Shown here: positions 19,050-43,254 of the stretch, piece after piece | How the letters are laid out: every line of letters starts with the position of its first letter | How positions within the stretch are numbered: the stretch's first letter is position 1 | From: Pseudomonadales bacterium | Lineage (GTDB): Bacteria > Pseudomonadota > Gammaproteobacteria > Pseudomonadales > Pseudohongiellaceae | Direction: 5' to 3' | Assembly: GCA_022821865.1 (NCBI GenBank) | Contig: JAJECW010000022.1 | Location: 1 to 46,900 of the forward strand | DNA length: 46,900 nt | The notes under the pieces: model-generated | What the model saw: the letters and a program-made list of their open reading frames with translations, nothing else | Told to the model about the DNA's origin: nothing | The model's database searches: none | Made by a program: the position numbers and the translations under genes

Positions 19050-20384
19050 ATGAAGCTGATCCGGACGCTTTCCCTGGCGGCGCTTGGTCTTCCCGCTGCG
19101 GCACTGGCGCAGCAGGACCCAAGCTACAACGAGCACATCGCCACCATCATCAACGAAAACTGCGTGGTGTGCCACCGCGAAGGCGGCATTGGCCCCATGC
19201 GGCTCGAAAACTACGACCAGGTCCGTCCCTGGGCGCCGCTCATCTCGCTGCGGGTGGCAAGTCGAGAAATGCCTCCCTACTCCTACGACCACGGCATTGG
19301 CATCCAGGACCTGAAAGGCGACTGGCGGCTGAGCCAGGAAGACATCGATGCCGTGGTTGCCTGGGTTGAGCAGGGTTCGCCCCGGGGCGACCCGGACATC
19401 GTCCCGCCAGCGACTGATCTGCCCGACCCGGACGCCTGGAACTTCGAGCCCGAGTTCGGCTCGCCGGACCTGATCATCCCTTCCGTGGCCATGGACATTC
19501 CCGCCAGCGGCAATGACCTCTGGAGCAAGCATTTCGTGGAAAGCGGCCTCGCCGCCGACCGCTGCATCAAGGCGGTGCAGGTAAAGCCCCGGGGCGACGC
19601 CAAGGCCGTTGTGCATCATGCCAACTCCGACATCTGGGCGCCGGATGAAAACGGCGAGTACCAGGAACTCGGGCAATTGACCGAATACGCCATGGGCAAG
19701 TGGGGCGAGTTGATGCCGGAAGGCGTCTGCCGCATGCTTCCCGAGGCGGCGCGCATCCGCTGGGATGTTCACATGTATCCGGGCGGAGTCGGCGCCACCG
19801 CGGAGGGCCAGATGATCCGTGACAATGTGGTGGAAATCGGCCTCTGGTTCCACGATGAGGACTTCATGGAGCGCGAGCAGCCCTACAGGCAGGACCTGCG
19901 CCCCTACCTCATGCGTTCCGGCTACGAAAACGGCGAACTGATCCTGCCGCCCCATGGCTACACCATGACCCAGGGTTTCCACTCCTTCGACCACCCGGTG
20001 CGCATCGACAGCTTCCAGCCACACGGCCACCTGCGCATGAACGCCGCTTCCTTCGAGATTTTCTATCCCGAAACCGGTCGCACCGAGCAGATCAGCCAGA
20101 TCTCCCACTGGAGCGCCACCTGGCACCACAGCCACATCTACGAGCCCGACGTGGCCCCGCTGGTTCCCACCGGCGCCGTGCTCGTGATCAAGCAGTGGTA
20201 CGACAACACCGCCAACAATCCCAACAATCCCGACCCGGACCAGTGGGTTTACGACGGCAGCCGCACCGGCGATGAAATGTCACACGCCTGGATCGCCATC
20301 ACCCACCTCGACGAGGAAGGCTACGAAAAACTCCTCGCCGAACGCGAAGCCAGCCGGCAACGCTCGCTGGCAGGCTCCGACTAG
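19050..20384 (+). CDS. Exported heme-c/copper type II monooxygenase-like protein, tandem copy 2
   Basis: 444 residues, colinear with copy 1 and about 80% identical by eye, with the same signal-peptide type (MKLIRTLSLAALGLPAAALA), CVVCH heme motif (38-42), VVHHAN, DVHMYPGG, PHGHLRM, WHHSHIY and GDEMSHAW ligand motifs. Differences cluster in the signal peptide, the linker after the c domain (PATDLPDPDAW) and the loop after HHANS (IWAPDENGEYQE), as expected for a duplication under purifying selection of the core. AGAGAGGAC precedes ATG 19050. Separate transcription is suggested by the terminator before it. All predicted copper and heme ligands are kept, so both copies should be active. Confidence 0.78.
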   Translation: MKLIRTLSLAALGLPAAALAQQDPSYNEHIATIINENCVVCHREGGIGPMRLENYDQVRPWAPLISLRVASREMPPYSYDHGIGIQDLKGDWRLSQEDIDAVVAWVEQGSPRGDPDIVPPATDLPDPDAWNFEPEFGSPDLIIPSVAMDIPASGNDLWSKHFVESGLAADRCIKAVQVKPRGDAKAVVHHANSDIWAPDENGEYQELGQLTEYAMGKWGELMPEGVCRMLPEAARIRWDVHMYPGGVGATAEGQMIRDNVVEIGLWFHDEDFMEREQPYRQDLRPYLMRSGYENGELILPPHGYTMTQGFHSFDHPVRIDSFQPHGHLRMNAASFEIFYPETGRTEQISQISHWSATWHHSHIYEPDVAPLVPTGAVLVIKQWYDNTANNPNNPDPDQWVYDGSRTGDEMSHAWIAITHLDEEGYEKLLAEREASRQRSLAGSD

Positions 20385-20392
20385 GGAAGCTC

Positions 20393-20432
20393 CGATAATG
20401 AAAAACTCCACGGATGGAGTTTTTCATTATCG
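20393..20432. terminator. Perfect 17-bp hairpin (first of four)
   Basis: CGATAATGAAAAACTCC and its exact complement surround the loop ACGGAT. The stem carries an A-tract on one side and a T-tract on the other, so it could end transcription on either strand. It begins nine bases after the stop of the tandem copy 2 gene. Confidence 0.65.
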
Positions 20433-20512
20433 CAAAACAAAAGCGTGGTTTTGTTTTGCTTACGAATTCAATGGCTTACGCCATCGAATTCGGCGGCACT
20501 TCCATGTGCCGC
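20432..20512. other. Three further abutting hairpins
   Basis: Directly after the first hairpin come three more with almost no spacer: 20432-20459 (perfect 11-bp stem GCAAAACAAAA, loop GCGTGG), 20463-20492 (13-bp stem CGAATTCAATGGC with one mismatch, loop TTAC) and 20493-20512 (perfect 7-bp GCGGCAC, loop TTCCAT). The stems are unrelated in sequence and base composition. The remaining 130 bases to purE hold no gene; they include a small AACCT/AGGTT stem and the AGGAG site of purE. Confidence 0.6.
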
Positions 20513-20645
20513 AGGGCTGGCCTTTGTCTCGTGCGCCTTCCACTTCCAGACAGAATGGGAATTGCTGCGGGAAAAGCGTCAAGCAGCTTGCACGGAACCT
20601 GCTACTAGGTTAGTTTCCCCGGTTTTTGGCAGGAGATTGGGGTTG

Positions 20646-21142
20646 ATGAGTTCGCCTTTTGTCGCGATTTTGATGGGGTCCAAATCAGATCTTGAAGCCA
20701 TGCGGGCCGGGGCCGATGTGCTGAAGAAATTCGGCATTCGCTACGAGATCAGGATCAGTTCGGCGCATCGTACGCCGGAAGCGACCAGGGAATACGTGGA
20801 AGCCGCCGTGGAGCGCGGCTGCCAGGTTTTTATCGCCGGCGCCGGCCTTGCCGCGCATCTTGCCGGCGCCATTGCCGCCCATACCACCAGGCCCGTCATC
20901 GGCGTACCCATGGACGCCGGTCCCCTGCGGGGAATGGACGCTCTGCTTTCCACAGTGCAAATGCCTTCCGGGGTGCCAGTGGCTTCCGTGGCCATCGGCA
21001 GGACCGGCGCCAGGAATGCCGCCTATCTGGCGGCGCAGATTCTGGCCCTGGCCGATGCTGCGCTTGCGGGCCGGGTTGCCGCCGACCGCAAGGCCGACGC
21101 CGAAAGAGTGCAGGCCCAGGATCGGGAGTTGCAGGCACAGCA

Positions 21143-21146
<4 letters not shown>
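20646..21146 (+). CDS. purE: N5-carboxyaminoimidazole ribonucleotide mutase
   Basis: Class I PurE (166 residues) moves the carboxylate of N5-CAIR to form CAIR in purine synthesis. The signatures GSKSD (11-15) and SSAHRTP (38-44, with the catalytic His41) are present, as is the glycine-rich AGAGLAAHLAGAIAAHT segment. I chose ATG 20646, preceded by AGGAG; the frame extends upstream only through the hairpin region. Its stop overlaps the tsaC start (GTGA). purK, its usual partner, is not in this window. Confidence 0.95.
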
Positions 21147-23488
<2,342 letters not shown>

Positions 23489-30644: not shown

Positions 30645-32705
30645 ATGGCAAACCGCCAGGACGATGCAATGCCACAAGATAGCGCGGCGACTGGAGCGCC
30701 AAGCCTGCCAGAGGCCATAACACCCAGGCTGATCGAGCCCTCGCTGCTCAACGCCCTGCCCCATTACTTGCCACTCGGCATTTTTCCACTGATCTTCGCC
30801 GCGATCCTGTACGGCGGCTGGTGGCTGTTGCCGCCGTTTCTGTTCTTCGCCACTGTCGGCGGCGGCATCGACAGGCTGATCGGCCTGGACGGGCGCAACA
30901 TGGATCCGACCAGGACCCCCGAGCGAAAGCTGCGCTGGCATAACATTCCGGTGTGGGTCTGGGCGGTGTTGTGGCCCCCCACGCTCATCTTCGGCATGTG
31001 GCAGATACTTGTGGCCAATCCTTTCGCCGTCTGGGAAGAGGTTCTGCTGGCGCTGATTCTGGTAACCGAGGCCCAGGCGGTTTTCATCGTCGGCCACGAA
31101 CTCGTGCATCGCCGCACGACCTGGGAAAGGCGCCTTGCGGAATTCCTGCTCGCCTCCGCCTCGTATCCGCAGTACGCCACCGAGCATGTCTATATCCATC
31201 ACGCCCAGGTGGGTACGCCTTACGATGCGGGGTCCGCCCGCAAGGGGGAGAGCTTCTGGGCCTATCTGCCCAGGGAAATCGCCAGTAATCTGACCCAATC
31301 CTGGAGAGTCGCCCGCGAGCGGCTGGCGCGCAGGCAACTGCCGGTCTGGCACGCCAGCAATCCCTTCTGGCGCTATGGCCTGGGTCTGGCGTTCTGGTTC
31401 GGGCTGACGTACTGGATGGGAGGCGTCTGGGCCTTGCTGGTCTTTATCCTGCTGGGCTACGGCTGTGTCTTTTCGATGAAGATCAGCAATTACCTGCAGC
31501 ATTACGGGCTGCGCCGGGTCCGCCTGCCGAACGGACGCTGGGAAAAAGTCATGCCCCGCCACTCCTGGAGCGCCGACTGGAAGTACAGCAACTGGATGTT
31601 CTTCAACATGCAGCGCCATGCCGACCATCATGCCCTGGCGAGCCGGCACTATCCCCTGCTGCAATTCCGCAATGCCGACGAGTCGCCCCAGTTGCCGGGC
31701 AGTTACGGCGATCTGATGTCGATGGTGCTGTGGCCAAAGCGCTGGTTCCGGTTGATGGACCCGCTGGTGGATCAATGGCGCAGGCACTTTTACCCGGAGA
31801 TCGAGGACTGGAGCCCCTATGACAGTTCGGTGGCCGTCTCCCGCCCGGAGGCTTTCGACGCCATCGTCGAGATTTTCGCCGCCGAGCCGAGGCTCGCCCG
31901 GTGGATGGAATCCAACCCGGAACTGCTCGACAACCTCCAGGAGCGGGAGTTCACCGATCTGGACCTGCCCAGAGGTTTCGGCCCGGACCCGGAATCCGAG
32001 TCCATTGCCCGCCGCGGCCTGACGCGGCTGTACTGGACCCGGGAAATGGACGTGGCGGAAATGCGCAGCCAGATCGCCGAAATCCCCATGGCGGACGCCG
32101 GGGACGCCGCGGAAACCCTGCGCAACTGGTCGAATGACAAGGCGTTTCAAGTCGGCATGCATGTGGTGCGCGGCAACCTGTCGCCGGATGAGGCGAAAAT
32201 CGCGCTGTCGAATCTCGCCGAAGCTTCGATTGTCACCGTGCTGTCCGCCGTGGTGGCGGATTTTGTCGACCGCCGCGGGCCGCTGGGCGAAGGCGGTTTG
32301 GCGGCGATCATCCTTGGTGATCTCGCCAGCCGGGAGGCGTTTCCCGAAACGCGGCTCGAGTTGCTGCTGGTGCACGACGGCCTGTCCCCGGCAAGCAGCG
32401 AACGTCTGTGCCGGCGCTGCCGTGAAACCCTCGGCAGTCTGAGCCGGAACAGCCTGCTGTTTTCCCACTCGCCGCGGGAGGTCGAAAAAAACACGCTGAT
32501 TCTCACAACGCCGCTTGACGAATTGGCCGAGATACGCAATAGCTCCGGAACCGAACTTCCCGACCTGACCGGGGCGCGCTGTGTCTATGAGGCCGGCGAT
32601 TCATCCCTTGGCGGCCGAAGCCGCGAAATCCTCGAACAAATGCGGAAGAACGGATCGAGGGCGGAACCATCGCCCGGGCCGGCCGAAACCAAACCGGAAC
32701 AATAA
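30645..32705 (+). CDS. AlkB-type di-iron monooxygenase fused to degenerate GlnE-like domain
   Basis: 686 residues. Residues 1-390 are an integral-membrane monooxygenase of the alkane hydroxylase (AlkB) type with all histidine boxes: HELVH (151-155), EHVYIHH (180-186), NYLQHYG (282-288) and MQRHADHHA (322-330), and about six hydrophobic segments. From about 400 the sequence switches to features of glutamine synthetase adenylyltransferase (GlnE): PRLARWMESNPELLDNL, WSNDKAFQVGMHVVRG and GLAAIILGDLASRE. Where GlnE has GSDLDL the protein has ETRLEL (568-573), so the metal-binding aspartates are missing and the domain is likely non-catalytic. The stop overlaps the YcaO start (TAATG), placing it in the RiPP operon, where it may hydroxylate the peptide or make a lipid precursor. 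Confidence 0.8.
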   Translation: MANRQDDAMPQDSAATGAPSLPEAITPRLIEPSLLNALPHYLPLGIFPLIFAAILYGGWWLLPPFLFFATVGGGIDRLIGLDGRNMDPTRTPERKLRWHNIPVWVWAVLWPPTLIFGMWQILVANPFAVWEEVLLALILVTEAQAVFIVGHELVHRRTTWERRLAEFLLASASYPQYATEHVYIHHAQVGTPYDAGSARKGESFWAYLPREIASNLTQSWRVARERLARRQLPVWHASNPFWRYGLGLAFWFGLTYWMGGVWALLVFILLGYGCVFSMKISNYLQHYGLRRVRLPNGRWEKVMPRHSWSADWKYSNWMFFNMQRHADHHALASRHYPLLQFRNADESPQLPGSYGDLMSMVLWPKRWFRLMDPLVDQWRRHFYPEIEDWSPYDSSVAVSRPEAFDAIVEIFAAEPRLARWMESNPELLDNLQEREFTDLDLPRGFGPDPESESIARRGLTRLYWTREMDVAEMRSQIAEIPMADAGDAAETLRNWSNDKAFQVGMHVVRGNLSPDEAKIALSNLAEASIVTVLSAVVADFVDRRGPLGEGGLAAIILGDLASREAFPETRLELLLVHDGLSPASSERLCRRCRETLGSLSRNSLLFSHSPREVEKNTLILTTPLDELAEIRNSSGTELPDLTGARCVYEAGDSSLGGRSREILEQMRKNGSRAEPSPGPAETKPEQ

Positions 32706-35008
32706 TGACAATGGCAGGTTCCGGGAGCGGTATCCTGGCGAAGACCACTCCCGCGGACCAGGGGCTGGTCGAACTTCCCGCGCTAACTCCCCATTTGCGA
32801 TTCCATGTGATCGACGAGGGGCAGACCCTGCTGGTCTCGGAAACCTTCAACACCCTGCTCCACGGCGAACTCTATTGCGACCTGCTGCCCCTGCTCGATG
32901 GCTGGCACAGCCAGCAGCAAATCATGGCCGCGCTGGATTCTTCCCACGACGCGCTGAATATCCTCACGACGCTGGTTTCACTCTCCCGCAAGGGTTATCT
33001 GGTATCCGCCGATCACGGCATGGACCGGGAGCGGGCCGCCTGGTGGTCATCCCTGGGCGCCTCGCCGCGCTGGGCCGAGCAGCGGCTGGCGGAATCGCGC
33101 ATTGCGGTAAGCGGCGAAGGCGATTCATTCATCCCGCATCTAGAAACGTTCGGCTTGCGGTTGACACCGGAAAACCCGGCTCTGACGGTGTTTCCTTGCG
33201 GGGATTATCTGGAAGAACGCTTTGCGACAGTGAATCGACAGCAGCTTGCCGCGGGCTCACCCTGGATGCTGCTTCGCGCCCGGGGAATCATGCCCCTGTT
33301 CGGCCCCGTTTTCCGCGCCGACGGCGAAGGCCCCTGCTGGACCTGTCTGGCCTACCGCCTGCGCAGCCACCAGGAGGTTCACAATTTCCTGCGCAACAGG
33401 GGCGGCGAAGAGCTTGCCTTCAAGCCCTTCGCGGCAGAGCCTGCTGCTGTGGATGCGCTGCTTGGGTTCGCTGCCGCGGAGGTCGCCAAACACGTGGTGT
33501 TCGGCGAGGCGGCGCCGCTGCACGATTCGGCAATGGCGCTGCACATGGGGCGGTTCGAAAGTTCCCGGCATCCGGTCATGCGGCGTCCGCAATGCCCGGC
33601 CTGCGGCGATGAGAATCTGTACCGGCCGGATCGGCCACCGACTCCCCTGCGCCTGCAAGCCAGCCCCAAAACTGTCAGCAACAGCGGCGGCGCGCGCTCG
33701 GTGGACCCGAAAGCCACCCTGGCCAGATACCGTCATCTGGTAAACCCGGTCAGCGGCGTGGTGAGCTGGCTCAATCGCGCCACCGATGAAAGCGATTCCT
33801 GGCTCCATGTCTATTGGGCCGGCAGCAATGTGGGCATCCGCGGCAGGCAACTCAATTCCCTGCGGCGCAGCCTGCGCAGCAAGAGCGCCGGCAAGGGCAG
33901 TGACCGGGAACAGTCCGAGGCCAGCGCGCTCTGTGAAGCCGTGGAACGATATTGCGGCGTCTTGCACGGCGACGAAATCCGCAAGCGCGGGCGCTTCCGG
34001 GACTTCGACGACGAGGCGATCCATCCCAACCGCGTGCAATTGTTCAGCGAGACGCAACTCGACAATGCCGAGAACATCAACGCCAAAGGACACCCATACA
34101 ATGTGGTTCCGCCGCGCCTGGACCCCGAGGCGGAAATAGACTGGAGCCCGGTGTGGTCCTTCACCCGGAAACAGCATCGCTGGCTGCCCACTTCCATGCT
34201 GTACGGCGTTCCGGCGGAACTGCGCGGGGTTTCTGATCAGGTCGCGGACTCCAACGGCTGCGCCGCCGGCAATACGCTGGAAGAGGCGATCCTGCAGGGC
34301 TTTTACGAGCTTGCCGAGCGGGACGCCTTCGCCATCTGGTGGTACAACCGGTTGCGAATGCCGTCTGTGGATCTGGACAGCTTCGAAGACGGCTACCTCA
34401 GGTCGGCGGCAAATTACTACCGCCAGCGGGATCGCGAAATGTGGATGCTCGACATCACCGCGGATCTGGACATCCCCACTTTCGTCGCCCTGTCCCGCAG
34501 GCCCGGCGCCGACAGCGAAGACATCATCTACGGCGCCGGCGCCCATGCCGACCCCCATATCGCCGCGCTGCGGGCAATCTGCGAACTGAACCAGTGCCTG
34601 ACCTGGTTGCCGCGCCCCGGATCCGGCGACGGCAAGCCCACGATTGACGATCCCCTGGCGCTATGGTGGTGGAAAACCGCGCGTCTGGCCGATTGCGACT
34701 GGCTGGCGCCGAAGGTGGGCACACCGCCGCGCAAGGCCGAAGATTACCCACAGATCAATATGGCGGACACCCGCGACGATGTGGAATACTGTCGCAGCCT
34801 GGTGGAGGCCCGGGGCATGGAGTTGCTCGCGCTGGATCAAACCCGGCCCGACATCGGCATGCCCGTGGTCCGGGTCATTGTCCCGGGAATGCGTCATTTC
34901 TGGGAAAGACTGGCGCCGGGGCGCCTGTATGACGTACCGGTGAGCATGGGGTGTCGCGCCGAACCATTGACCGAATCCGAACTCAACAACATGCCGGTAA
35001 TCGCTTGA
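32705..35008 (+). CDS. Fused E1-like/YcaO TOMM cyclodehydratase
   Basis: 767 residues. The N-terminal part (about 20-110) looks like a PqqD-like leader-recognition element, next comes an E1-like (Ocin-ThiF-type) region with a four-cysteine zinc site (CWTC 211-214, CPAC 297-300), and residues about 380-760 are YcaO, with the ATP-site helix SAGKGSDREQSEASALCEAVER. Such fused CD proteins convert Cys, Ser or Thr of a precursor to azolines with ATP. The C-terminus ends ESELNNMPVIA and lacks the PxPxP tail of many TOMM YcaOs. It is coupled to the gene before it and followed nine bases later by the orphan gene. Confidence 0.93.
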   Translation: MTMAGSGSGILAKTTPADQGLVELPALTPHLRFHVIDEGQTLLVSETFNTLLHGELYCDLLPLLDGWHSQQQIMAALDSSHDALNILTTLVSLSRKGYLVSADHGMDRERAAWWSSLGASPRWAEQRLAESRIAVSGEGDSFIPHLETFGLRLTPENPALTVFPCGDYLEERFATVNRQQLAAGSPWMLLRARGIMPLFGPVFRADGEGPCWTCLAYRLRSHQEVHNFLRNRGGEELAFKPFAAEPAAVDALLGFAAAEVAKHVVFGEAAPLHDSAMALHMGRFESSRHPVMRRPQCPACGDENLYRPDRPPTPLRLQASPKTVSNSGGARSVDPKATLARYRHLVNPVSGVVSWLNRATDESDSWLHVYWAGSNVGIRGRQLNSLRRSLRSKSAGKGSDREQSEASALCEAVERYCGVLHGDEIRKRGRFRDFDDEAIHPNRVQLFSETQLDNAENINAKGHPYNVVPPRLDPEAEIDWSPVWSFTRKQHRWLPTSMLYGVPAELRGVSDQVADSNGCAAGNTLEEAILQGFYELAERDAFAIWWYNRLRMPSVDLDSFEDGYLRSAANYYRQRDREMWMLDITADLDIPTFVALSRRPGADSEDIIYGAGAHADPHIAALRAICELNQCLTWLPRPGSGDGKPTIDDPLALWWWKTARLADCDWLAPKVGTPPRKAEDYPQINMADTRDDVEYCRSLVEARGMELLALDQTRPDIGMPVVRVIVPGMRHFWERLAPGRLYDVPVSMGCRAEPLTESELNNMPVIA

Positions 35009-35017
35009 GGCAGAGCA

Positions 35018-36142
35018 ATGATGGAATATGACGAAGGACGGGAATTCACCCAGCGGCGGCTGGCGGATGAAACCGGCACCATGGCCGAGCTGCTTGGGAA
35101 TTTCAGGCCGCAAATCCCGACCAGTCTGGTGGGTGAGCGGGAATTGAAGGCGATTTGCGACCGGCTCGGGAATCTGCCGGCAACCTTCGCGGCCTTCCCT
35201 TTCGGGTTCGAACTGCCGCTGAACGACAGCAGGCCCGCAGCAGACTTCGGCCTCTCGCTTGCCGGTGGGACGCCAATAGCAGCCTTTTTCCAGCACCAGG
35301 TGGAACCCGCCCAGGCAGATGCGGACTCTCGCCATATCAACAATCTGCTGGCGGAAACCGATCACGAGAGTTCACGGTTGCGCGAAATCGTCGGTCGCAA
35401 GCTGATGCTCGAGTACGATGTCGCATCCGCCGCCAACGGCAGGCGGGAGGTTCCCGGAATTTTCATGCGGCCCTACGAACGACCGATGATTGCCGGCTGC
35501 CGGGAAAGTGCGGAGGATGTGGGCACGGTGGTGAGGGCACTGGTCTCCGCCGTGGACTGGGAGCCCGATTCGGCGGAACGGAGAAATGTGGAAAACGTAT
35601 TCCTCGCCCTGCAAGACGACACCCGGCTCGAATCCATTGGCGCTTTCCCGGCGCGGGAACGTTCGATTCGTCTGGCTGCCATGAAATTCCGCAGCTTTAC
35701 GCAGATTCTGGATTTCCTGGAGCGCATCGGCTGGCCCGGCGACATTTCCGTATTGGCGGATTCCATCTCGCAATTCGAAGCCATCGGAGGATTCAAGAGC
35801 CTTGGCGTGCATCTGGACGTTCGCCGGAGTGGCGTAGGCCCCGTCCTGGGCCTGGGCTTCTACAACAACCACCGCCTGGCCGACGACCCGAAATATTGGC
35901 TGGACGACCCCAATGACTGGGACGCATTCCTGGAAGCCCTGACCGGAACGGGAGTGGCGCTCCCGGAAAAACTGGCGGCGCTGGCGGGCTGGCCGGCTGA
36001 ACCCACCCCGATTTTTGGCCGGGCGGGGCCATACATGCTGCTACGCGGCATCCACCATATCAAGGTTGTAGTGTCGGAGGGCAGGCTGACAAGGGGAAAG
36101 GCCTACGTATTCATGTTGTTGAACGGCGCGATGTTCGCCTGA
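35018..36142 (+). CDS. Unrecognised RiPP-cluster protein
   Basis: 374 residues, soluble, no signal peptide or membrane helix. I do not recognise the family. Visible pieces are MLEYDVAS near 129, IFMRPYERPMIAGC near 148, GVHLDVRRSGVGPVLGLGFYNNHR near 265, and a C-terminal IHHIKVVVSEGRLTRGKAYVFM. The C-terminal pattern recalls uncharacterised proteins found beside YcaO or other RiPP genes, from memory only. There is no flavin/nitroreductase motif, so it is not an obvious SagB-type azoline oxidase. GAGG precedes ATG 35018, nine bases after the YcaO stop, and it converges on the methyltransferase. It could be a tailoring or partner protein for the cyclodehydratase. Confidence 0.75.
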   Translation: MMEYDEGREFTQRRLADETGTMAELLGNFRPQIPTSLVGERELKAICDRLGNLPATFAAFPFGFELPLNDSRPAADFGLSLAGGTPIAAFFQHQVEPAQADADSRHINNLLAETDHESSRLREIVGRKLMLEYDVASAANGRREVPGIFMRPYERPMIAGCRESAEDVGTVVRALVSAVDWEPDSAERRNVENVFLALQDDTRLESIGAFPARERSIRLAAMKFRSFTQILDFLERIGWPGDISVLADSISQFEAIGGFKSLGVHLDVRRSGVGPVLGLGFYNNHRLADDPKYWLDDPNDWDAFLEALTGTGVALPEKLAALAGWPAEPTPIFGRAGPYMLLRGIHHIKVVVSEGRLTRGKAYVFMLLNGAMFA

Positions 36143-36160
36143 AGCTGAAGTTGCCCAAGG

Positions 36161-36991
36161 TTACTGTTCCGGTTTGGTCCCCGACAGGAACCGGTAGGTG
36201 AATACTTCTTCCCGCAATCCCTGGTCAAAGGCAACCATCGCTTCCGTGAATTCCCGGACGGCCGGAGTGATCTTATCCCGACCCGGGCCAAACAATTCAA
36301 GCAACATATAGCTATCGCGAATCCCCTTGGTCGAGGGTAAGACTTCGGCGTCGAGATCCCGGGCGCCTGCTTGCGCGAACCCCGCCTCCGCAATGGCATC
36401 CAGAACCTCGCGCCACGGCTCCAATGGCGGCATGCGCCAGCCCCGTTGGGAATTGGCGTGAAGTTCCCGCTGGGATTCGGAAAGGGGTGCGCCGCTGCGG
36501 AGGCCCTCCAGCGCCTGCCAGCGTCCTCCCGCCTTGAGCACCCGATGCACACCGCGCAGATAGGCGAGTTTGTCCGGCGCGTAGCAGAAGGATTCGTGAT
36601 TCAGCACGGCGTCGAATGAGGCGCCAGGGAAAGGCAGATCCATGAAGTCCGCATGGTGGAATTCCACCAGATGGGCCACGCCGCGCTGCTTCGCATGGTT
36701 TGTCGCCACTTCGATATGGGGTTCGCAGTTCGTCACGCCGGTAACGCGGACCCCGTATCGCCCGGCCAGCCAGATGGCCGTGCCGCCGATTCCGCAACCG
36801 GAATCCAGGAAATGCTTTCCGGAACCAGGCTGCAGGCCTTGCGCCAGCGTCTCGTTGGCCCGGATCAGACCTTCCCGATGAGATGTTGTTTCCGGTCCCC
36901 ACAGGCCGCAATGACAGCACAGCAGATCGCCGCCGAAGATCTCCATGCGCTCGGTCATGGCGGTGTAATGTTCGGCGACGGTGGTTTCCAT
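36161..36991 (-). CDS. SAM-dependent methyltransferase
   Basis: 276 residues of class I methyltransferase fold, closest in style to the UbiE/tocopherol-sarcosine methyltransferase group. Motif I is FLDSGCGIGG (61-70), the acidic second strand is VTGVTNCEPH and the post-motif FDAVLNHESFCYAPD is normal. A Cys-rich LLCCHCGLWGP lies before motif I. It is downstream of the precursor gene on the same strand, 163 bases away with a hairpin between. It may methylate the peptide N-terminus, a side chain or the C-terminus; the substrate cannot be told. The start at ATG 36991 has only a weak AGG site. Confidence 0.85.
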   Translation of the reverse strand: METTVAEHYTAMTERMEIFGGDLLCCHCGLWGPETTSHREGLIRANETLAQGLQPGSGKHFLDSGCGIGGTAIWLAGRYGVRVTGVTNCEPHIEVATNHAKQRGVAHLVEFHHADFMDLPFPGASFDAVLNHESFCYAPDKLAYLRGVHRVLKAGGRWQALEGLRSGAPLSESQRELHANSQRGWRMPPLEPWREVLDAIAEAGFAQAGARDLDAEVLPSTKGIRDSYMLLELFGPGRDKITPAVREFTEAMVAFDQGLREEVFTYRFLSGTKPEQ

Positions 36992-37079
36992 GAAATGCGG
37001 CCTGCGGGTTTCAGGGTTTCAGTGAGGGATTCGGCATCGGCGACACCGGAAATTCCTCACGAAAAAGGCGACTTGCGAA

Positions 37080-37100
37080 CCCGGAGCCTGACGCTCCGGG
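37080..37100 (-). promoter_or_regulatory. Hairpin between precursor and methyltransferase genes
   Basis: CCCGGAGC (37080-37087) and GCTCCGGG (37093-37100) form a perfect 8-bp stem with a five-base loop. On the minus strand it stands 55 bases after the precursor stop and is followed after some bases by CTTTTTC. It may attenuate or stabilise, giving more precursor than enzyme. Confidence 0.4.
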
Positions 37101-37154
37101 CCACATGCCGCCGCAAGGGTCGAAAACCGGATAACCGGCTGTAGCGGAACGAAA

Positions 37155-37406
37155 CTACAGGCAGCAACTCAGGCCGGCAGAGATGGCCTCAAGCTGCTCT
37201 TCGGTCATATCCCCGGTCACAGGCAAGGCGAGATGCACGGTCTGGAGACTGCTCTCATGTACCTTGATCTCCATGCTGTCGGGAATGGTGATACCCAGTT
37301 CGCTGTTCAGCGCGCCTTTCGGGTCATCAATGAGCCGCTGGCGGAACTCCGCGTCCTCTGCGGCTTTCCGGGTCAAGTGCGTACGCATTTCTTCTGCTGT
37401 TTGCAT
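37155..37406 (-). CDS. NHLP-type RiPP precursor peptide, core LSCCL
   Basis: 83 residues from ATG 37406, with GAGGATAACGAAC upstream. The leader is nitrile-hydratase-alpha-like: KAAEDAEFRQRLIDDPKGAL, then LGITIPDSMEIKVHES and HLALP, then TGDMTEEQLEAISAG. The Ala-Gly at 77-78 is the expected C39 cut, leaving LSCCL as the core. An earlier in-frame ATG region (to 37472) is not leader-like and overlaps a hairpin. The core holds one Ser and two adjacent Cys, the residues a YcaO enzyme heterocyclises. It is encoded between the methyltransferase and the divergent export genes. Confidence 0.92.
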   Translation of the reverse strand: MQTAEEMRTHLTRKAAEDAEFRQRLIDDPKGALNSELGITIPDSMEIKVHESSLQTVHLALPVTGDMTEEQLEAISAGLSCCL

Positions 37407-37433
37407 GTTCGTTATCCTCAAGAGTAAACATTC

Positions 37434-37465
37434 TTTGGCACTGTGGAGATTCCCGCAGTGCCAAA
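37434..37465. promoter_or_regulatory. 13-bp hairpin upstream of precursor gene
   Basis: TTTGGCACTGTGG and CCGCAGTGCCAAA pair with one G-U around a six-base AGATTC loop, 28 bases before the precursor start. It may be a leader-RNA structure or an operator. Confidence 0.5.
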
Positions 37466-37472
37466 CCCCCAA

Positions 37473-37492
37473 CTCAAATCATCTGATCTGAG
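37473..37492. promoter_or_regulatory. 20-base near-perfect palindrome, candidate operator
   Basis: CTCAAATCATCTGATCTGAG is a dyad with only one mismatched pair outside its centre, in the divergent region between precursor and transport genes. It has the length of a dimeric-regulator site; no regulator gene is seen in the cluster. Confidence 0.45.
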
Positions 37493-37554
37493 CCGATGGA
37501 CTGGATTTTATATACAGGGGGATGGGTGGGCAAGTTGCATTTTTTTAAGTTGGC

Positions 37555-37571
37555 GATAAGATTTTCTTATC
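37555..37571. promoter_or_regulatory. GATAAGA/TCTTATC dyad before transport genes
   Basis: GATAAGA (37555-37561) and TCTTATC (37565-37571) form a perfect 7-base inverted repeat with a three-base centre, 21 bases before the GTG start of the HlyD-like gene. It is in an AT-rich block (37503-37570) that likely carries the promoter. Confidence 0.4.
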
Positions 37572-37591
37572 CCCCGCAGTCTGGAGACTTC

Positions 37592-38113
37592 GTGTTCATC
37601 GATCCGTTTCAGAAAATGGCGGCCGAAGCCAAGGATGACCGAGAAAAACTCGACCGCCTGCTGACTGTGTCAGCGCCCCATGAGCGAGTGCTGATAGCGA
37701 CAGTGACTCTAGCCCTGATTGCCTTTTGTGGCTGGCTTGTTTTCGGCAGTATCGCCCGCAGTATCGCCGTGGACGGCGTACTGTCCGAAGCACCGGACGA
37801 TGGGCGCACGCTCCAGGTGCTGGTATGGCTGGAGCACGACCTGGCCCGGAATATTGATCCGGGCGCTGAACTCAGCATAGCGCTTGTTGATGGCGCTGGA
37901 GCCTTGCGGCTTTCCGGCGAACTCTCCTCGCTTGTCGTGGCGGCAGTTCCCGGCTGGCCGGAAGCTATGGGTTCCCCGTCGCCGGCTGCGCTGTACCAGA
38001 TCACCATTTCCCTGGAACAGGGTCGGCAACTGGAGCTTCCGCCATCTGCGCCCTGCCGGATAGAAATTACGCTTGGCAGACAATCTCCCGCAGCGCTATT
38101 GGGTTTGGGGTGA
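37592..38113 (+). CDS. Short HlyD-like NHLP secretion protein
   Basis: 173 residues from GTG 37592, chosen because GGAG stands five bases before it. FQKMAAEAKDDREKLDRLLTVSAPHERV is followed by one membrane helix (VLIATVTLALIAFCGWLVFGS) and a small periplasmic beta domain (LQVLVWLEHDLARNIDPGAEL, and LPPSAPCRIEITLG). The LDRLLTVxxP start is typical of NHLP-system HlyD proteins, but the coiled-coil hairpin and lipoyl half-motifs usual for membrane fusion proteins are absent. It probably helps the two ABC subunits rather than spanning the periplasm. It is seven bases before the first ABC gene. Confidence 0.78.
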   Translation: MFIDPFQKMAAEAKDDREKLDRLLTVSAPHERVLIATVTLALIAFCGWLVFGSIARSIAVDGVLSEAPDDGRTLQVLVWLEHDLARNIDPGAELSIALVDGAGALRLSGELSSLVVAAVPGWPEAMGSPSPAALYQITISLEQGRQLELPPSAPCRIEITLGRQSPAALLGLG

Positions 38114-38119
38114 CTCTGA

Positions 38120-40339
38120 ATGGCGTCGCAGGGATCGGAAAACCCGGCCCGGGAGTCGGCCAGGCAGAGAATCAGGACGCCTCTCATTCTGCAAATGCAC
38201 GCCACCGAGTGCGGCGCCGCCTGTCTCGGTAGTGTATTGGCCCATTTCGGGCGTTGGGTGTCATTAAGCGAACTCCGCGACAAATGCGAAGTGAGTCGCG
38301 ATGGTTCAAGCGCTGCGGGACTCCTCCGCGCGGCCAGATCCTACGGCCTGGAATGTTCGGGAAAATACCTGGCGCCGGACAAGCTGCGGGCAATGCAGAT
38401 GCCCCTGGTCCTGTTCTGGGAATTCCGTCATTTCGTGGTGCTCGAAGGATTCGATAGTGAATCCTGGTACCTCAACGACCCTTCATTCGGGCGGCGACGC
38501 ATTTCCAGCGAGGATTTCCAGCGAAGTTTTTCCGGCGTGGCGCTGGCTTTCAAGGTCGGACCCGATTTCCGGCCCGGAGGCAACCGCCCCGGCATCCTGA
38601 AGCGGCTCCGCGGCTGGCTCGGCAAGTCCCGGGACCTGCTCGCCGGCGCCTTCGCCTGCGGCTTGCTGCTGGCCTTGCTGGCGCTGCTCGTACCGGCGTC
38701 CCTCGGCGCCTTTCTGGATCGGATTCTCGATGGCCGGGAATCCCAGGGAGTGGTTCTGGCATCGGTAATGTTGCTTGCCGGCATCATGGCCTACTGCCTG
38801 GCCCTGCTGAAACAGCAACTGTTGGGAAAGCTGGCGGTTCGCATGTCCATTGTCATGAGCAACCGGCTGATCTCGGGTTTGCTGCGGCTTCCGGTGGAAT
38901 TTTTCAGCCACCGCATGGTGGGCGACCTTACCCAGCGCATCCTGTCCATAGACCAGATCGCCAAAGACCTGACTGGCCGGTTTCTTGCTTTGCTGATCGA
39001 AGTTTCCATGAGCCTGGTGTTGCTCGCCGCCATGGCCTTTATCGATGGAACGCTGACCTTGATCGTGCTGGGGCTGGCGGCGCTTTACGCCGGGCTCAGC
39101 CACGCCATCCTGCGCCTTGGCGCGGAGCGGATGTATTCGCTCCGGCGCGAACGAGGCCTTCTGGTGGGAATCGGGCTGCAAATGTTGAGCCACGCCGACA
39201 ACCTGCGCATGATTGGCGCCGACGACCGGATGTATTCGCGTTGGAGCGGTCAGCAGTCCCTGGAACTGAACATGCGCCAACGCGCCTCGGAACTGGATCA
39301 TCTGGGTTCGGCCCTGTCGGGTCTTGCCGCCGCCATGGTCAGCGTGGCGATTCTCGCTTTCGGCGCCATTCGGGTCATGTCCGGCGACATCACTCTTGGC
39401 GCATGGGTGGGGTTTTATGTGCTCGCGGCAATGTTTTTCGCACCGGTTGGCCGTTTTGTCGCTTTGGCCAACCGGCGTCAGAGCCTGGAAACCGACATGC
39501 ATCGCCTGGGAGACCTGGCCGAAGCGGTTGCGGAAGTGGTTCCCGCGCCCCTGGGTCGGGACCCGCGCCGCGGAGAGGATTCGATTTCCACTTTCAACGG
39601 CCGACTGCAACTAGCCGGTCAGGTCGAGTTGCGCAACATCACCTTCGGCTATAACCGAAACAAGCCGCCGCTGATCAAGGACTTCAATCTGCGAATCAGG
39701 CCGGGGCAAAGAGTCGCCATCGTCGGGCCGAGCGGCTCTGGAAAATCCACCATTTCGCGGTTGGTTGCCGGGCTGAACGAGCCTTGGGCGGGTGAAATCC
39801 TGTTTGACGGCAAGCCGCGGCGGGAGATTCCCGCCGAAGTGCTGAGCCGGTCCATCTCCATGGTGGATCAGGACGCCGTGCTGTTTTCCGCCTCGGTGCG
39901 CGAGAACATCACCCTGTGGAATCCGGCCATTCCCGATGAAACCATCATTGCGGCGGCCCGGGACGCCTGCATGCACGAGGAAATCCTGCGCCGCCCGGGT
40001 GGCTACTCGGCCCGGGTGGAGGAAGGCGGAGTGAACTTCAGCGGTGGTCAGCGGCAGCGTCTCGAAATCGCCCGGTCCCTGGTGGGCAATCCCGCCATAA
40101 TCATCCTCGATGAGGCCACCAGCGCATTGGACGCCGCCACCGAGGAATTTGTCGATGACGCCTTGCGGCGGCGCGGCGCCACCTGCCTGATTATCGCCCA
40201 CCGGCTCAGCACCGTGCGTGACTGCGACGAAATCATCGTGCTGAACAAGGGCGTGGAAGTGCAGCGAGGCACCCATGACAGCCTGATTGCGGACCCGGAC
40301 GGCGCCTATTGCAAGCTGGTGAAGGCTTCTTCGCAATGA
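38120..40339 (+). CDS. NHLP family C39 peptidase/ABC transporter
   Basis: 739 residues. The N-terminal C39 peptidase has LQMHATECGAACL (Cys31), His104 in FRHFVVLEGF and Asp120 in LNDPSFG, a complete triad for cutting leaders after a Gly-Gly-type site. A six-helix membrane domain lies at about 180-460. The ATPase has GPSGSGKST, the signature FSGGQRQRLEIARSL and IIILDEATSAL. It would cleave the precursor and export the product. It follows the HlyD-like gene by six bases, and its stop overlaps the next gene (ATGA). Confidence 0.95.
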   Translation: MASQGSENPARESARQRIRTPLILQMHATECGAACLGSVLAHFGRWVSLSELRDKCEVSRDGSSAAGLLRAARSYGLECSGKYLAPDKLRAMQMPLVLFWEFRHFVVLEGFDSESWYLNDPSFGRRRISSEDFQRSFSGVALAFKVGPDFRPGGNRPGILKRLRGWLGKSRDLLAGAFACGLLLALLALLVPASLGAFLDRILDGRESQGVVLASVMLLAGIMAYCLALLKQQLLGKLAVRMSIVMSNRLISGLLRLPVEFFSHRMVGDLTQRILSIDQIAKDLTGRFLALLIEVSMSLVLLAAMAFIDGTLTLIVLGLAALYAGLSHAILRLGAERMYSLRRERGLLVGIGLQMLSHADNLRMIGADDRMYSRWSGQQSLELNMRQRASELDHLGSALSGLAAAMVSVAILAFGAIRVMSGDITLGAWVGFYVLAAMFFAPVGRFVALANRRQSLETDMHRLGDLAEAVAEVVPAPLGRDPRRGEDSISTFNGRLQLAGQVELRNITFGYNRNKPPLIKDFNLRIRPGQRVAIVGPSGSGKSTISRLVAGLNEPWAGEILFDGKPRREIPAEVLSRSISMVDQDAVLFSASVRENITLWNPAIPDETIIAAARDACMHEEILRRPGGYSARVEEGGVNFSGGQRQRLEIARSLVGNPAIIILDEATSALDAATEEFVDDALRRRGATCLIIAHRLSTVRDCDEIIVLNKGVEVQRGTHDSLIADPDGAYCKLVKASSQ

Positions 40340-43254
40340 TCACTCGAGAGACAAGTCTGGCCGCACTCGCCGCAGGTCACAGTGAACCCGTACCCTGCGC
40401 CGGCAATCAACCCGTCAGCCTCGACGATCCCGATTGTGTGTGGTTTATCGAACAGGGCGCGGTGGATCTTTTCCTGGTGGAGTTTCTCGATGGCGTCGAA
40501 CAGGCGGCTGCGCAACATTTGCTGCGGGCAAAGTCGGGCAGGATTTTGCCCGGAATTGCCCCGGACGAGGATGGCACGACCCTGAGCCTGCTTGCCAAGG
40601 GAGTTCCCGGAACGGTGCTGAGGCGTCTGCCGCGGGGCGCTTTCGCCCAGGCGGAGCCTCTGGAACTTGCGGGTCAGGCGGATATCTGGCTGACCGAGCT
40701 GGCGGAGACGCTGTCGCGTTATGTGGGATATCGTCCAAGGCCCGATTCGCTGGCGGTTCCGGAAACGACTTCCGTCCAGGCGGGTAACCTGTCGGTCCGG
40801 CGCGGCGTGGTCTGGATGGCCGAAGCGCCGCCAGGCTCGAATCTGTACATGGGTCTGGTGGACCTGTCTGAGTTTGCCGGGACGGGAAAATCTCCCGGCG
40901 GCGCTGTTCCGCTGACTTCGGCGACCTGGCTGAGCCTGTTCGATGAAGCGGAGCTGGAATTCAAATCTTCGGCGGCGCTGGCGCGGGAAGGCGCCCTGCT
41001 GCAGGCGCTGGCCTCCTTTCACCGGCTGGCCTTTTCCCTGGAGCGGCTGAATCGCCGGCTCGCCGTGGTTGATCACGCCAACCTCGAGCGAGCCCGGGCA
41101 AGCAGTCGCCGGGCAGATGAACAGGCGGCCCGGCAACGGCTCTTCAATATCCATGATCTTCCTCTCGAAAAATACGACGGCGCCGAAGACGCGGCCCTCG
41201 CCGACGCCCTGGGCATGATCGGTCGCCGGGAAGGAATCGGGTTCCGTATTCCGCCGCGTCCGCCCGCGTCCGAAACTCCCCTGACTCTCGGCGATGTGAT
41301 CGACGCATCGCTGGCGCGTTCCCGGCGAGTCCAGCTCAAGGTCGAAGATCAATGGTGGCGCGGCGACAGTAACGCGATGCTGGCCTTCCGCGCCGAGGAC
41401 AGCCAGCCAGTGGCGTTGCTGCCGGGCCTCTTTGGTCGTTATCGAATGTACGATCCGGTCAGCAAGCGCCAGTTCCGGGTTACCGCCGCACGCGCCAGCG
41501 AACTGGCTGAGGACGCCTGGGTCTTCTACCGCCCATTGCCGGCGGAAAGCGTCGGCGCCGGCGAAATGCTGCGCATGGGGCTGCGGGGGTCAGCCGGCGA
41601 CCTGGTCAAGCTTGTACTGGCCGGGCTTCCGGCGGGGCTCATCAAGCTGGTTCCGGGGCTTGGCCTGGGAATTGCGGCGAATCATTTCATTCAGGGTGGA
41701 AATGCGGGCGTCATCTACGCGCTTGCCGCGGCTGTGGCGGGTTTTGCCCTGCTTGGAGCGTTGCTGCACCTGTTGCAGGGCATGGCGATGATGCGACTGG
41801 AAGGCCGTTTCTGGACCCGCGTTGAAGCCGCATTCTGGGACCGGCTGCTGCGGCTGCCCCCGCATATCCTGCATCGCCATCCCGCCGGCGATCTCGCCAT
41901 GCGGGGGATGACGTTCCAGAATCTGCGCGACAGCATTCAGGGCGCGGTGGCGGACAGCGTGCTTGCCGTCATTTTTCTGCTGCCGGTTTTCGGCGTCATA
42001 TCCCTCTACGACTCCAGGCTTGGTCTGGTCGCCCTCGCTTTCAGCCTGGCTTCACTGCTGCTGACCCTGGCGTTGGGGCTGCGCCAGATCTCGCCATACG
42101 GGAGAATGGCGAGCGGAGTGCGCAGTATCGCCGGCAGACTGTTCCAGATCGTTGGCGGAATCGCCAAGATTCGCGTGGAAAGCGCGGAAGGATCGGCTTT
42201 CGCCATCTGGGCTCGGGACTATCGCGAACAGAAGCGCGCGGAGCTGAGACTCGGCGCGCTCGAAGGGCATTTGCAGGCCTTCGGCGCCGCGCTGCCGTTC
42301 CTGGCCGGAGCGGTGCTGTTTTATGCAGTGGCCAGCGGCGAAGGGCCTTTGCTTCCGGTGGGTGATTTTCTGGTGATCTACACCGTGTTTATCGTATTCC
42401 AGTCAGCTTTGGCCCGACTCGGAGAATCTTTTGGCGCAATCGCCGCAGCCTTGCCCGGGCTCGAACAGACGCGCCCTCTGCTTGAGGCTGTTCCGGAAAC
42501 TTCCATGGCTGGAGAATCCATTTCCCATCTGGGCGGAGAAGTGCTCTTTGACCATATCTCGTTCCGCTACGACGCCGATGGCCCATGGATTCTCGATGAC
42601 GTCACGATTCACGCCAGACCGGGGGAATTCATCGCCATCGCCGGCGAGTCGGGCGCCGGGAAAAGCACCCTGTTTCGCCTTGCCCTCGGGCTGGAAACCC
42701 CGACCTCAGGTGCGGTCTATTTCGATGGCCGCGATCTCCGGCGACTCAACCTGAAGCAATTGCGCCGGAAAATCGGCGCGGTTCCCCAGTCGGTGCGGCT
42801 GCATCCGGAAGACATCTGGGACAATATCGTCGCCCATCACGAGGACGCGACCGATGAGGAAGTCTGGCAATCCGCCGGCGCAGCGGGCATCGATGCGGAA
42901 ATCAGGGCCATGCCCATGGGAATGATGACGCCGGTGGGTGCCAGCGGCAGCGTGCTCTCGGGCGGCGAAGGCCAGCGCGTCACCATCGCCCGCTCTCTGA
43001 TCCGCAGCCCCCGCGTCATGTTGCTCGATGAAGCCACCAATTGGCTCGACAACGAAAGCCAGGCCCAGGTGATGAACAAGCTCGCCGCCCTTACCTCTAC
43101 CCGCATCGTCATCGCCCACCGTCTATCCACCCTCGAACAGGCCGACCGCATCTACGTCATGAAAGCGGGCAAGGTCGTGGAAAGCGGCTCCTTTGAAGAA
43201 CTCATGGAAACCCCCGGCGTCTTCCACGACCTCGTCAAACGCCAAATCGCCTGA
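40336..43254 (+). CDS. NHLP bacteriocin export ABC permease/ATPase
   Basis: 972 residues from ATG 40336, which overlaps the previous stop; an earlier TTG at 40309 is less likely. The N-terminal 350 residues have no peptidase; instead VWFIEQGAVDLFLVEF near 36 is the segment typical of the second ABC subunit of NHLM systems. Membrane helices lie at about 410-680, and the ATPase has GESGAGKST, LSGGEGQRVTIARSL and VMLLDEATNWLDN. It probably forms a heterodimer with the C39 transporter. No gene follows on the same operon; a GC-rich repeat comes right after. Confidence 0.93.
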   Translation: MITRETSLAALAAGHSEPVPCAGNQPVSLDDPDCVWFIEQGAVDLFLVEFLDGVEQAAAQHLLRAKSGRILPGIAPDEDGTTLSLLAKGVPGTVLRRLPRGAFAQAEPLELAGQADIWLTELAETLSRYVGYRPRPDSLAVPETTSVQAGNLSVRRGVVWMAEAPPGSNLYMGLVDLSEFAGTGKSPGGAVPLTSATWLSLFDEAELEFKSSAALAREGALLQALASFHRLAFSLERLNRRLAVVDHANLERARASSRRADEQAARQRLFNIHDLPLEKYDGAEDAALADALGMIGRREGIGFRIPPRPPASETPLTLGDVIDASLARSRRVQLKVEDQWWRGDSNAMLAFRAEDSQPVALLPGLFGRYRMYDPVSKRQFRVTAARASELAEDAWVFYRPLPAESVGAGEMLRMGLRGSAGDLVKLVLAGLPAGLIKLVPGLGLGIAANHFIQGGNAGVIYALAAAVAGFALLGALLHLLQGMAMMRLEGRFWTRVEAAFWDRLLRLPPHILHRHPAGDLAMRGMTFQNLRDSIQGAVADSVLAVIFLLPVFGVISLYDSRLGLVALAFSLASLLLTLALGLRQISPYGRMASGVRSIAGRLFQIVGGIAKIRVESAEGSAFAIWARDYREQKRAELRLGALEGHLQAFGAALPFLAGAVLFYAVASGEGPLLPVGDFLVIYTVFIVFQSALARLGESFGAIAAALPGLEQTRPLLEAVPETSMAGESISHLGGEVLFDHISFRYDADGPWILDDVTIHARPGEFIAIAGESGAGKSTLFRLALGLETPTSGAVYFDGRDLRRLNLKQLRRKIGAVPQSVRLHPEDIWDNIVAHHEDATDEEVWQSAGAAGIDAEIRAMPMGMMTPVGASGSVLSGGEGQRVTIARSLIRSPRVMLLDEATNWLDNESQAQVMNKLAALTSTRIVIAHRLSTLEQADRIYVMKAGKVVESGSFEELMETPGVFHDLVKRQIA

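Follow-up and report, generated by a model that had tools for sequence, protein, structure and literature searches.

Clusters of the srp type are reportedly widespread in sponge microbiomes, as set out in a founding study of 2021. In the published plan, the precursor SrpE carries first a leader of the NHLP type, about 80 residues long, and then the five-residue core LCCCW (PMC10286304), in which the YcaO protein SrpC forms thiazolines, and SrpI is a leader-guided brominase (PMC10286304, PMC10858898, PMC12615548). Similar clusters have been described in further sponges (PMC9426513), and the final product is given as unknown in the portions of these sources that were consulted (PMC10286304, PMC9426513). 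In the literature searched, whose scope did not include the founding 2021 paper, srp clusters were not found described with a prenyltransferase, a terpene cyclase, an oxygenase of the AlkB type or a methyltransferase.

Here, we analyzed a stretch of 46,900 nucleotides from a Pseudomonadales bacterium of a kind that occurs in marine sponges; this stretch, hereafter called the window, is an entire contig of a 3.38-Mb assembly in 153 contigs. With a probability of roughly 0.6, we read its eight-gene cluster as a variant of the srp proteusin clusters of sponges that has no brominase but has a methyltransferase. The route proposed for it runs, in this order, through azoline formation, prenylation, oxidation, methylation, and leader cleavage with export. 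Its product is probably a ring-modified, prenylated, oxidised and methylated five-residue peptide.

Gene content of the cluster

The initial annotation, made from the sequence alone, had proposed that eight genes form one coherent NHLM/TOMM pathway. All eight were recovered by ORF and profile evidence on the strands proposed (Table 1), and the two overlaps described were also seen: TAATG, at 32705, joins the AlkB-like and E1-YcaO genes, and ATGA, at 40336, joins ABC1 and ABC2. The set is not a chance assembly, because the same genes recur together across many genomes, and the reading as one coherent pathway holds. The two transporter genes have NHLM-type models as their best matches, with both scores below the respective cut-offs, and the short protein called HlyD-like gave no match at E 0.001 in Pfam and NCBIfam; an in-frame GTG at 37592 is an alternative possible start of its gene. 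The precursor coordinates, the HlyD-like start and a marginal GlnE match (see below) are small corrections to the first description. Profile searches of the host genome found YcaO once and a single precursor scoring above the cut-off for NHLP. A scan of promoters and terminators gave 1 site against 2.7 expected and 15 against 12.3 expected, respectively.

Table 1. Genes of the cluster and halogenase homologues elsewhere in the host genome. Scores are in bits, with model cut-offs in parentheses.
Feature	Position	Strand	Evidence
AlkB-like di-iron oxygenase of the membrane, 686 aa; C-terminal part GlnE-like, degenerate	30645..32705	+	PF00487 89.2 (29.7)
TOMM leader-binding E1 fused to YcaO cyclodehydratase, 767 aa, SrpC-like	32705..35008	+	TIGR03604 277 (219.25); TIGR03882 138.5 (36.9); PF02624 313.2 (25.7)
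ORF374, predicted PT-barrel (ABBA/DMATS-fold) prenyltransferase, 374 residues	35018..36142	+	AlphaFold2 model, PDB fold matches
Class I SAM methyltransferase, 276 aa	36161..36991	-	PF08241 75.6
NHLP precursor, 83 aa, core LSCCL	37155..37406	-	TIGR03793 72.7 (50.9); alignment with the leaders and cores from related loci
Short membrane/periplasmic adaptor-like protein, start uncertain	37496..38113	+	Homologue adjoins ABC1 in most relatives
ABC1, NHLM type: C39 peptidase, permease and ATPase	38120..40339	+	PF03412 111.9 (22); TIGR03796 809 (853.3)
ABC2, second NHLM-type permease/ATPase	40336..43254	+	TIGR03797 671.1 (709.4)
Three tryptophan-halogenase homologues in the host genome (L085-L087)	G000:C58:41204-42571; G000:C26:17019-18371 and 20335-21723		

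Related loci and their core peptides

A scan of genome contigs with the YcaO protein confirmed 93 relatives, from which 80 loci were kept, 79 of them titled as metagenome-assembled genomes (MAGs). Their YcaO proteins are 55-90% identical to that of the window, and the genes are shared in a similar order. Sponge is named in the source titles for L060 and L069; a sponge origin of the other loci is suggested by the srp literature. YcaO was matched at E 0.001 in 12 of the 137 genomes of the window's family, and 11 of these 12 belong to its genus.

The comparison set of 85 loci comprised the 80 loci, the window and four stretches from genomes of the same genus. An AlkB-like gene was present at 73 and an ORF374 homologue at 71 (41 and 44, respectively, among the 48 whose flanks extend 9 kb or more in either direction), which rules out that these two are chance neighbours. 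The initial annotation had held that YcaO loci lacking its partner genes throughout would refute the pathway, and this outcome was not seen. The window's methyltransferase was found at only 11 and is an accessory gene. An SrpI-like halogenase was found at 41, where "SrpI-like" means similar to the PF04820 protein of L016 (146.9 bits), taken as representative in place of the published SrpI. The initial annotation had further considered that the combination of genes matched no known RiPP class. This was not supported: the YcaO relatives found in the scan rule out a class without known kin and place the cluster beside srp.

The cores obtained were LCCCW (52), LCCCGW (2), LSCCL (3), LSCCV (2), LSCCM (1), LCCC (2), RCCC (1), LCCCGI (1), MCCCGI (3) and WCCCGN (1); 21 of the 85 loci, several of them cut by contig ends, gave no core. 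Some loci carry more than one precursor beside a single YcaO gene: LCCCW and WCCCGN in L016 (13541-13888 and 17230-17520), and LCCCW and MCCCGI in L067 and in L015 and L081 (13539-13790 and 16200-16454). A distant YcaO locus (L076:7709-9748, 55% identity) has five tandem NHLP precursors whose cores are rich in Ser, Thr, Ala and Gly; no further srp gene was found there. A frame of about 294 residues in L003 and L004 (G000:C138:4796-5161) resembles NHLP precursors weakly in two stretches, both of which score under the cut-off of the family.

Precursor and azoline formation

As in srp, the precursor has an NHLP leader (78 residues, ending in EAISAG) directly followed by a short Cys-rich core, LSCCL in place of the Trp-terminated LCCCW. 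The YcaO protein combines the cyclodehydratase domain with a leader-binding E1 part, as expected of a TOMM enzyme; judging from these families, the E1 part would bind the folded leader, and the YcaO part may cyclise the two Cys residues, and perhaps the Ser, of LSCCL. The absence of a flavin azoline dehydrogenase, claimed from the locus, extends to the whole host genome, where no match to the SagB-type model TIGR03605 was found (five candidates were scored, and the controls matched). Thiazolines rather than thiazoles would therefore be expected, and they would stay unoxidised because no azoline dehydrogenase was found. As the last step proposed, the C39 domain of ABC1 may cleave after AG, and the ABC pair may export the product.

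ORF374, a predicted prenyltransferase

The 374-residue protein had been described as unrecognised, and at the level of sequence families it is: searches of Pfam and NCBIfam gave no match at E 0.001, nor did any sequence-level match to a prenyltransferase appear. Its alignment found only two designed proteins among PDB sequences (E 0.6-0.7), and the best Pfam hit was a DUF (E 0.0031, in 7 of the 55 members). The predicted fold, on the other hand, is recognisable. The AlphaFold2 model (pLDDT 88.5) is a barrel of repeated helix-helix-strand-strand units that finds PT-barrel folds in the PDB, with modest Foldseek TM-scores of 0.38-0.56 over alignments about 10% identical. Against a viral fold library, three matches reached E 0.001, and cyanophage proteins accounted for two. 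PF11991 (Trp_DMAT) had 0 matches in 299 genomes of the phylum in a search whose controls were likewise without a match. Four charged residues on the barrel strands, K128, R218, K361 and E65, are nearly or fully invariant among 55 homologues, which in the model is consistent with diphosphate binding.

ORF374 thus looks, from its predicted structure, like a PT-barrel prenyltransferase, which would attach an isoprenyl group to the core. Because no residue of LSCCL is aromatic, and LCCC, the core in L068 and L069, offers no hydroxyl either, the acceptor common to all cores would be one end of the peptide or the thiol of a Cys left uncyclised; most likely it is the N-terminal amine or the C-terminal carboxylate. 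Tandem pairs of ORF374-like genes, 28-40% identical to that of the window, were seen in L131 (11114-12232 and 12271-13353) and L132 (9410-10510 and 10589-11716), and the second gene may encode a different prenyltransferase.

Alternatively, ORF374 could keep a PT-like barrel without prenylating and act as a partner protein, keeping the tiny core in place for the YcaO protein or the oxygenase, the product then being only an oxidised, methylated thiazoline peptide. We consider this rather unlikely. The missing aromatic acceptor in LSCCL and LCCC would fit it, as would the missing sequence match to known prenyltransferases; however, charged barrel residues conserved across 55 homologues argue against it, and a class II terpene cyclase fold at the same loci suggests isoprenoid chemistry.

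The AlkB-like oxygenase

An AlkB-GlnE fusion had been proposed, of which the AlkB part was confirmed. Nine His residues, which we assign to the AlkB-type motifs, are invariant in all 120 best-listed homologues of 1047 hits, the pattern of a di-iron oxygenase. The match of the GlnE part was marginal (24.2 against a cut-off of 24). Two aligned columns presumably correspond to the catalytic Asp pair of the GlnE nucleotidyltransferase motif. Among the same 120 best-listed homologues, the first has Asp in at most 3 and Arg in the window, and the second has Asp in 63 and Glu in 31, with Glu in the window. A working GlnE domain is ruled out by this loss of the catalytic Asp. The oxygenase would hydroxylate an aliphatic carbon, and a methyl of the prenyl group or the Leu residue is our guess for its substrate.

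The methyltransferase

Compared by sequence with solved proteins, the methyltransferase was most similar to a D-glucose O-methyltransferase (94.8 bits), followed by an unnamed methyltransferase and then by MitM, at about 80 bits; scores were 34.8 bits for LahSB, which methylates RiPP C-termini, and 32 for CypM, which acts on the N-terminus. Geranyl diphosphate (GPP) 2-C-methyltransferase gave 62.4 bits in NCBIfam (cut-off 400) and 41.5 bits in the PDB. These similarities do not decide the choice of substrate. Our first guess is that the enzyme caps a peptide end, as a C-terminal O-methyl or an N-methyl group, because aeruginosamides are N-prenylated, C-terminal thiazole methyl esters (PMC7551963, PMC11285071). 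In the common type of cluster, Trp bromination and probably terpene cyclisation would stand in place of this capping.

Methylation of the isoprenyl diphosphate donor, in the manner of GPP 2-C-methyltransferase, or of Cys thiols instead of a peptide end appears distinctly unlikely. The weak matches to that enzyme are in its favour, and a proteusin S-methyltransferase, PtyS, is known (PMC11285071), yet the sugar O-methyltransferase and MitM outscore them and the sequence bears no specific sign of either activity.

Trp-type and non-Trp loci

The methyltransferase accompanies mainly non-Trp cores. Among the 54 loci with a Trp-terminal core, SrpI was found at 34, a terpene-cyclase-fold protein at 50 and the methyltransferase at 2, against 0, 0 and 9 of the 10 loci with only non-Trp cores (Fisher p 2.0e-4, 6.6e-9 and 1.9e-8, respectively); these p values ignore kinship, and five of the ten loci are the window's own clade. 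Absences at the non-Trp loci L006 and L007, on contigs shorter than 4.7 kb, carry no meaning. At the tenth non-Trp locus, L064, a 61% identical methyltransferase and the precursor share one contig, some 37 kb apart. When whole genomes were searched at E 1e-40, the methyltransferase was present in all six with LSCC[LVM], LCCC, LCCCGI or WCCCGN as an extra or only core. The two systems occur together in L016, where LCCCW goes with SrpI and WCCCGN goes with the methyltransferase. Counter-examples are L041, where the methyltransferase stands beside LCCCW and SrpI and the genome gave no second simple precursor, and L015, L067 and L081, which have the second core MCCCGI and no methyltransferase; the E 1e-40 search also found none in the whole genomes of L015 and L067. 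Eleven Trp-type loci with full flanks have no SrpI within 10 kb.

Fifty-eight ORFs in the relatives, L015:6537-7838 and 57 others, encode fusions in which an NHLP-like leader precedes a terpene cyclase fold of class II. They sit in most Trp-type srp loci, and the window has none.

In the YcaO tree (84 rows), two label changes are needed, and the starred branches force one. For a 50-row subset, from which 24 named long, near-duplicate or other loci, core-less rows and short matches had been dropped, the better score went to the tree in which the eight non-Trp rows form one group (AU p 0.669), and the independent pairs were too few to support a test. One clade of non-Trp YcaOs is thus not rejected, and we do not claim repeated, independent exchange of precursor and methyltransferase. 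Among the loci listed in the scan, those of the Trp type have YcaOs 57-74% identical to the window's, and its kinship with SrpC is drawn through these LCCCW loci.

A separate RiPP lineage that shares only the chassis with srp, and to which the LCCCW type is not close kin, is highly improbable: although the core, SrpI and the cyclase-fold partner differ and the leader tree (76 columns) parts Trp-type from non-Trp leaders with 100/99 support, the window's place within it being weak, the nearest YcaOs in the tree after the window's own clade are those of the Trp-type loci L009, L078, L133 and L083, L016 has both systems beside one YcaO, and the AlkB-like, ORF374 and ABC genes are common to both types.

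Implications and comparison with known systems

More generally, srp clusters may be RiPP-isoprenoid hybrids. In this tentative picture, which we put at somewhat less than an even chance, a core of four to six residues is prenylated at a non-aromatic site by a hitherto unrecognised enzyme of the PT-barrel fold. In the Trp type, the chain would be folded by a class II terpene cyclase bearing an NHLP tag, whereas methyl capping would have replaced bromination and cyclisation in the lineage of the window. New relative to the literature searched are the assignments, from predicted folds, of the prenyltransferase barrel and its terpene-cyclase partner, which would make the srp product testable. If the orphan is a prenyltransferase and its neighbour a terpene cyclase, short, lipophilic thiazoline peptides bearing an isoprenoid should be sought. 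The methyltransferase variant without Trp and brominase is, in addition, a natural experiment on the residue that each enzyme modifies.

With srp, the window shares the NHLP precursor, the tiny Cys-rich core after AG, the fused E1-YcaO protein and relatives from MAGs of a similar kind, and its Trp-type relatives combine a PF04820 halogenase with the LCCCW core known from print. It differs in its LSCCL core, its added methyltransferase and the lack of a terpene-cyclase-fold partner and an SrpI-like gene; the three halogenase homologues of the host genome share only 22-25% identity with the SrpI-like protein from L016. Because no SrpI-type brominase was found, the cluster is filed as a variant and not as a typical srp cluster.

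Cyanobactins are defined by their own precursor and protease set, and in aeruginosamide-type pathways the methyltransferase and prenyltransferase are a single fused protein. The window has an NHLP precursor and a C39 transporter-peptidase instead of the cyanobactin set, and an AlkB-like oxygenase. What it would share with these linear cyanobactins (AgeMTPT), short thiazole peptides with an N-terminal prenyl group and a C-terminal methyl ester (PMC7551963, PMC11285071, PMC13290415), is a prenyltransferase and a methyltransferase in one pathway, which is an analogy and not membership. The mpr proteusin cluster (MprE, MprC, MprD) has in common with the window the NHLP leader and an azoline-making YcaO protein; it differs in ten precursors with longer cores, in two to six azolines and in the flavin azoline oxidase MprD, which is missing in the window (PMC12455567). 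PalQ/PalX likewise represents a prenylated RiPP with an NHLP-type precursor, whereas PalQ is a member of the isoprene-synthase superfamily that modifies a Trp at the C-terminus, in contrast to the predicted PT barrel and Trp-less core of the window (PMC10853753). Finally, a published study concerns, by its title, RiPPs with cyclised isoprenoids, similar to what we propose for the Trp-type relatives.
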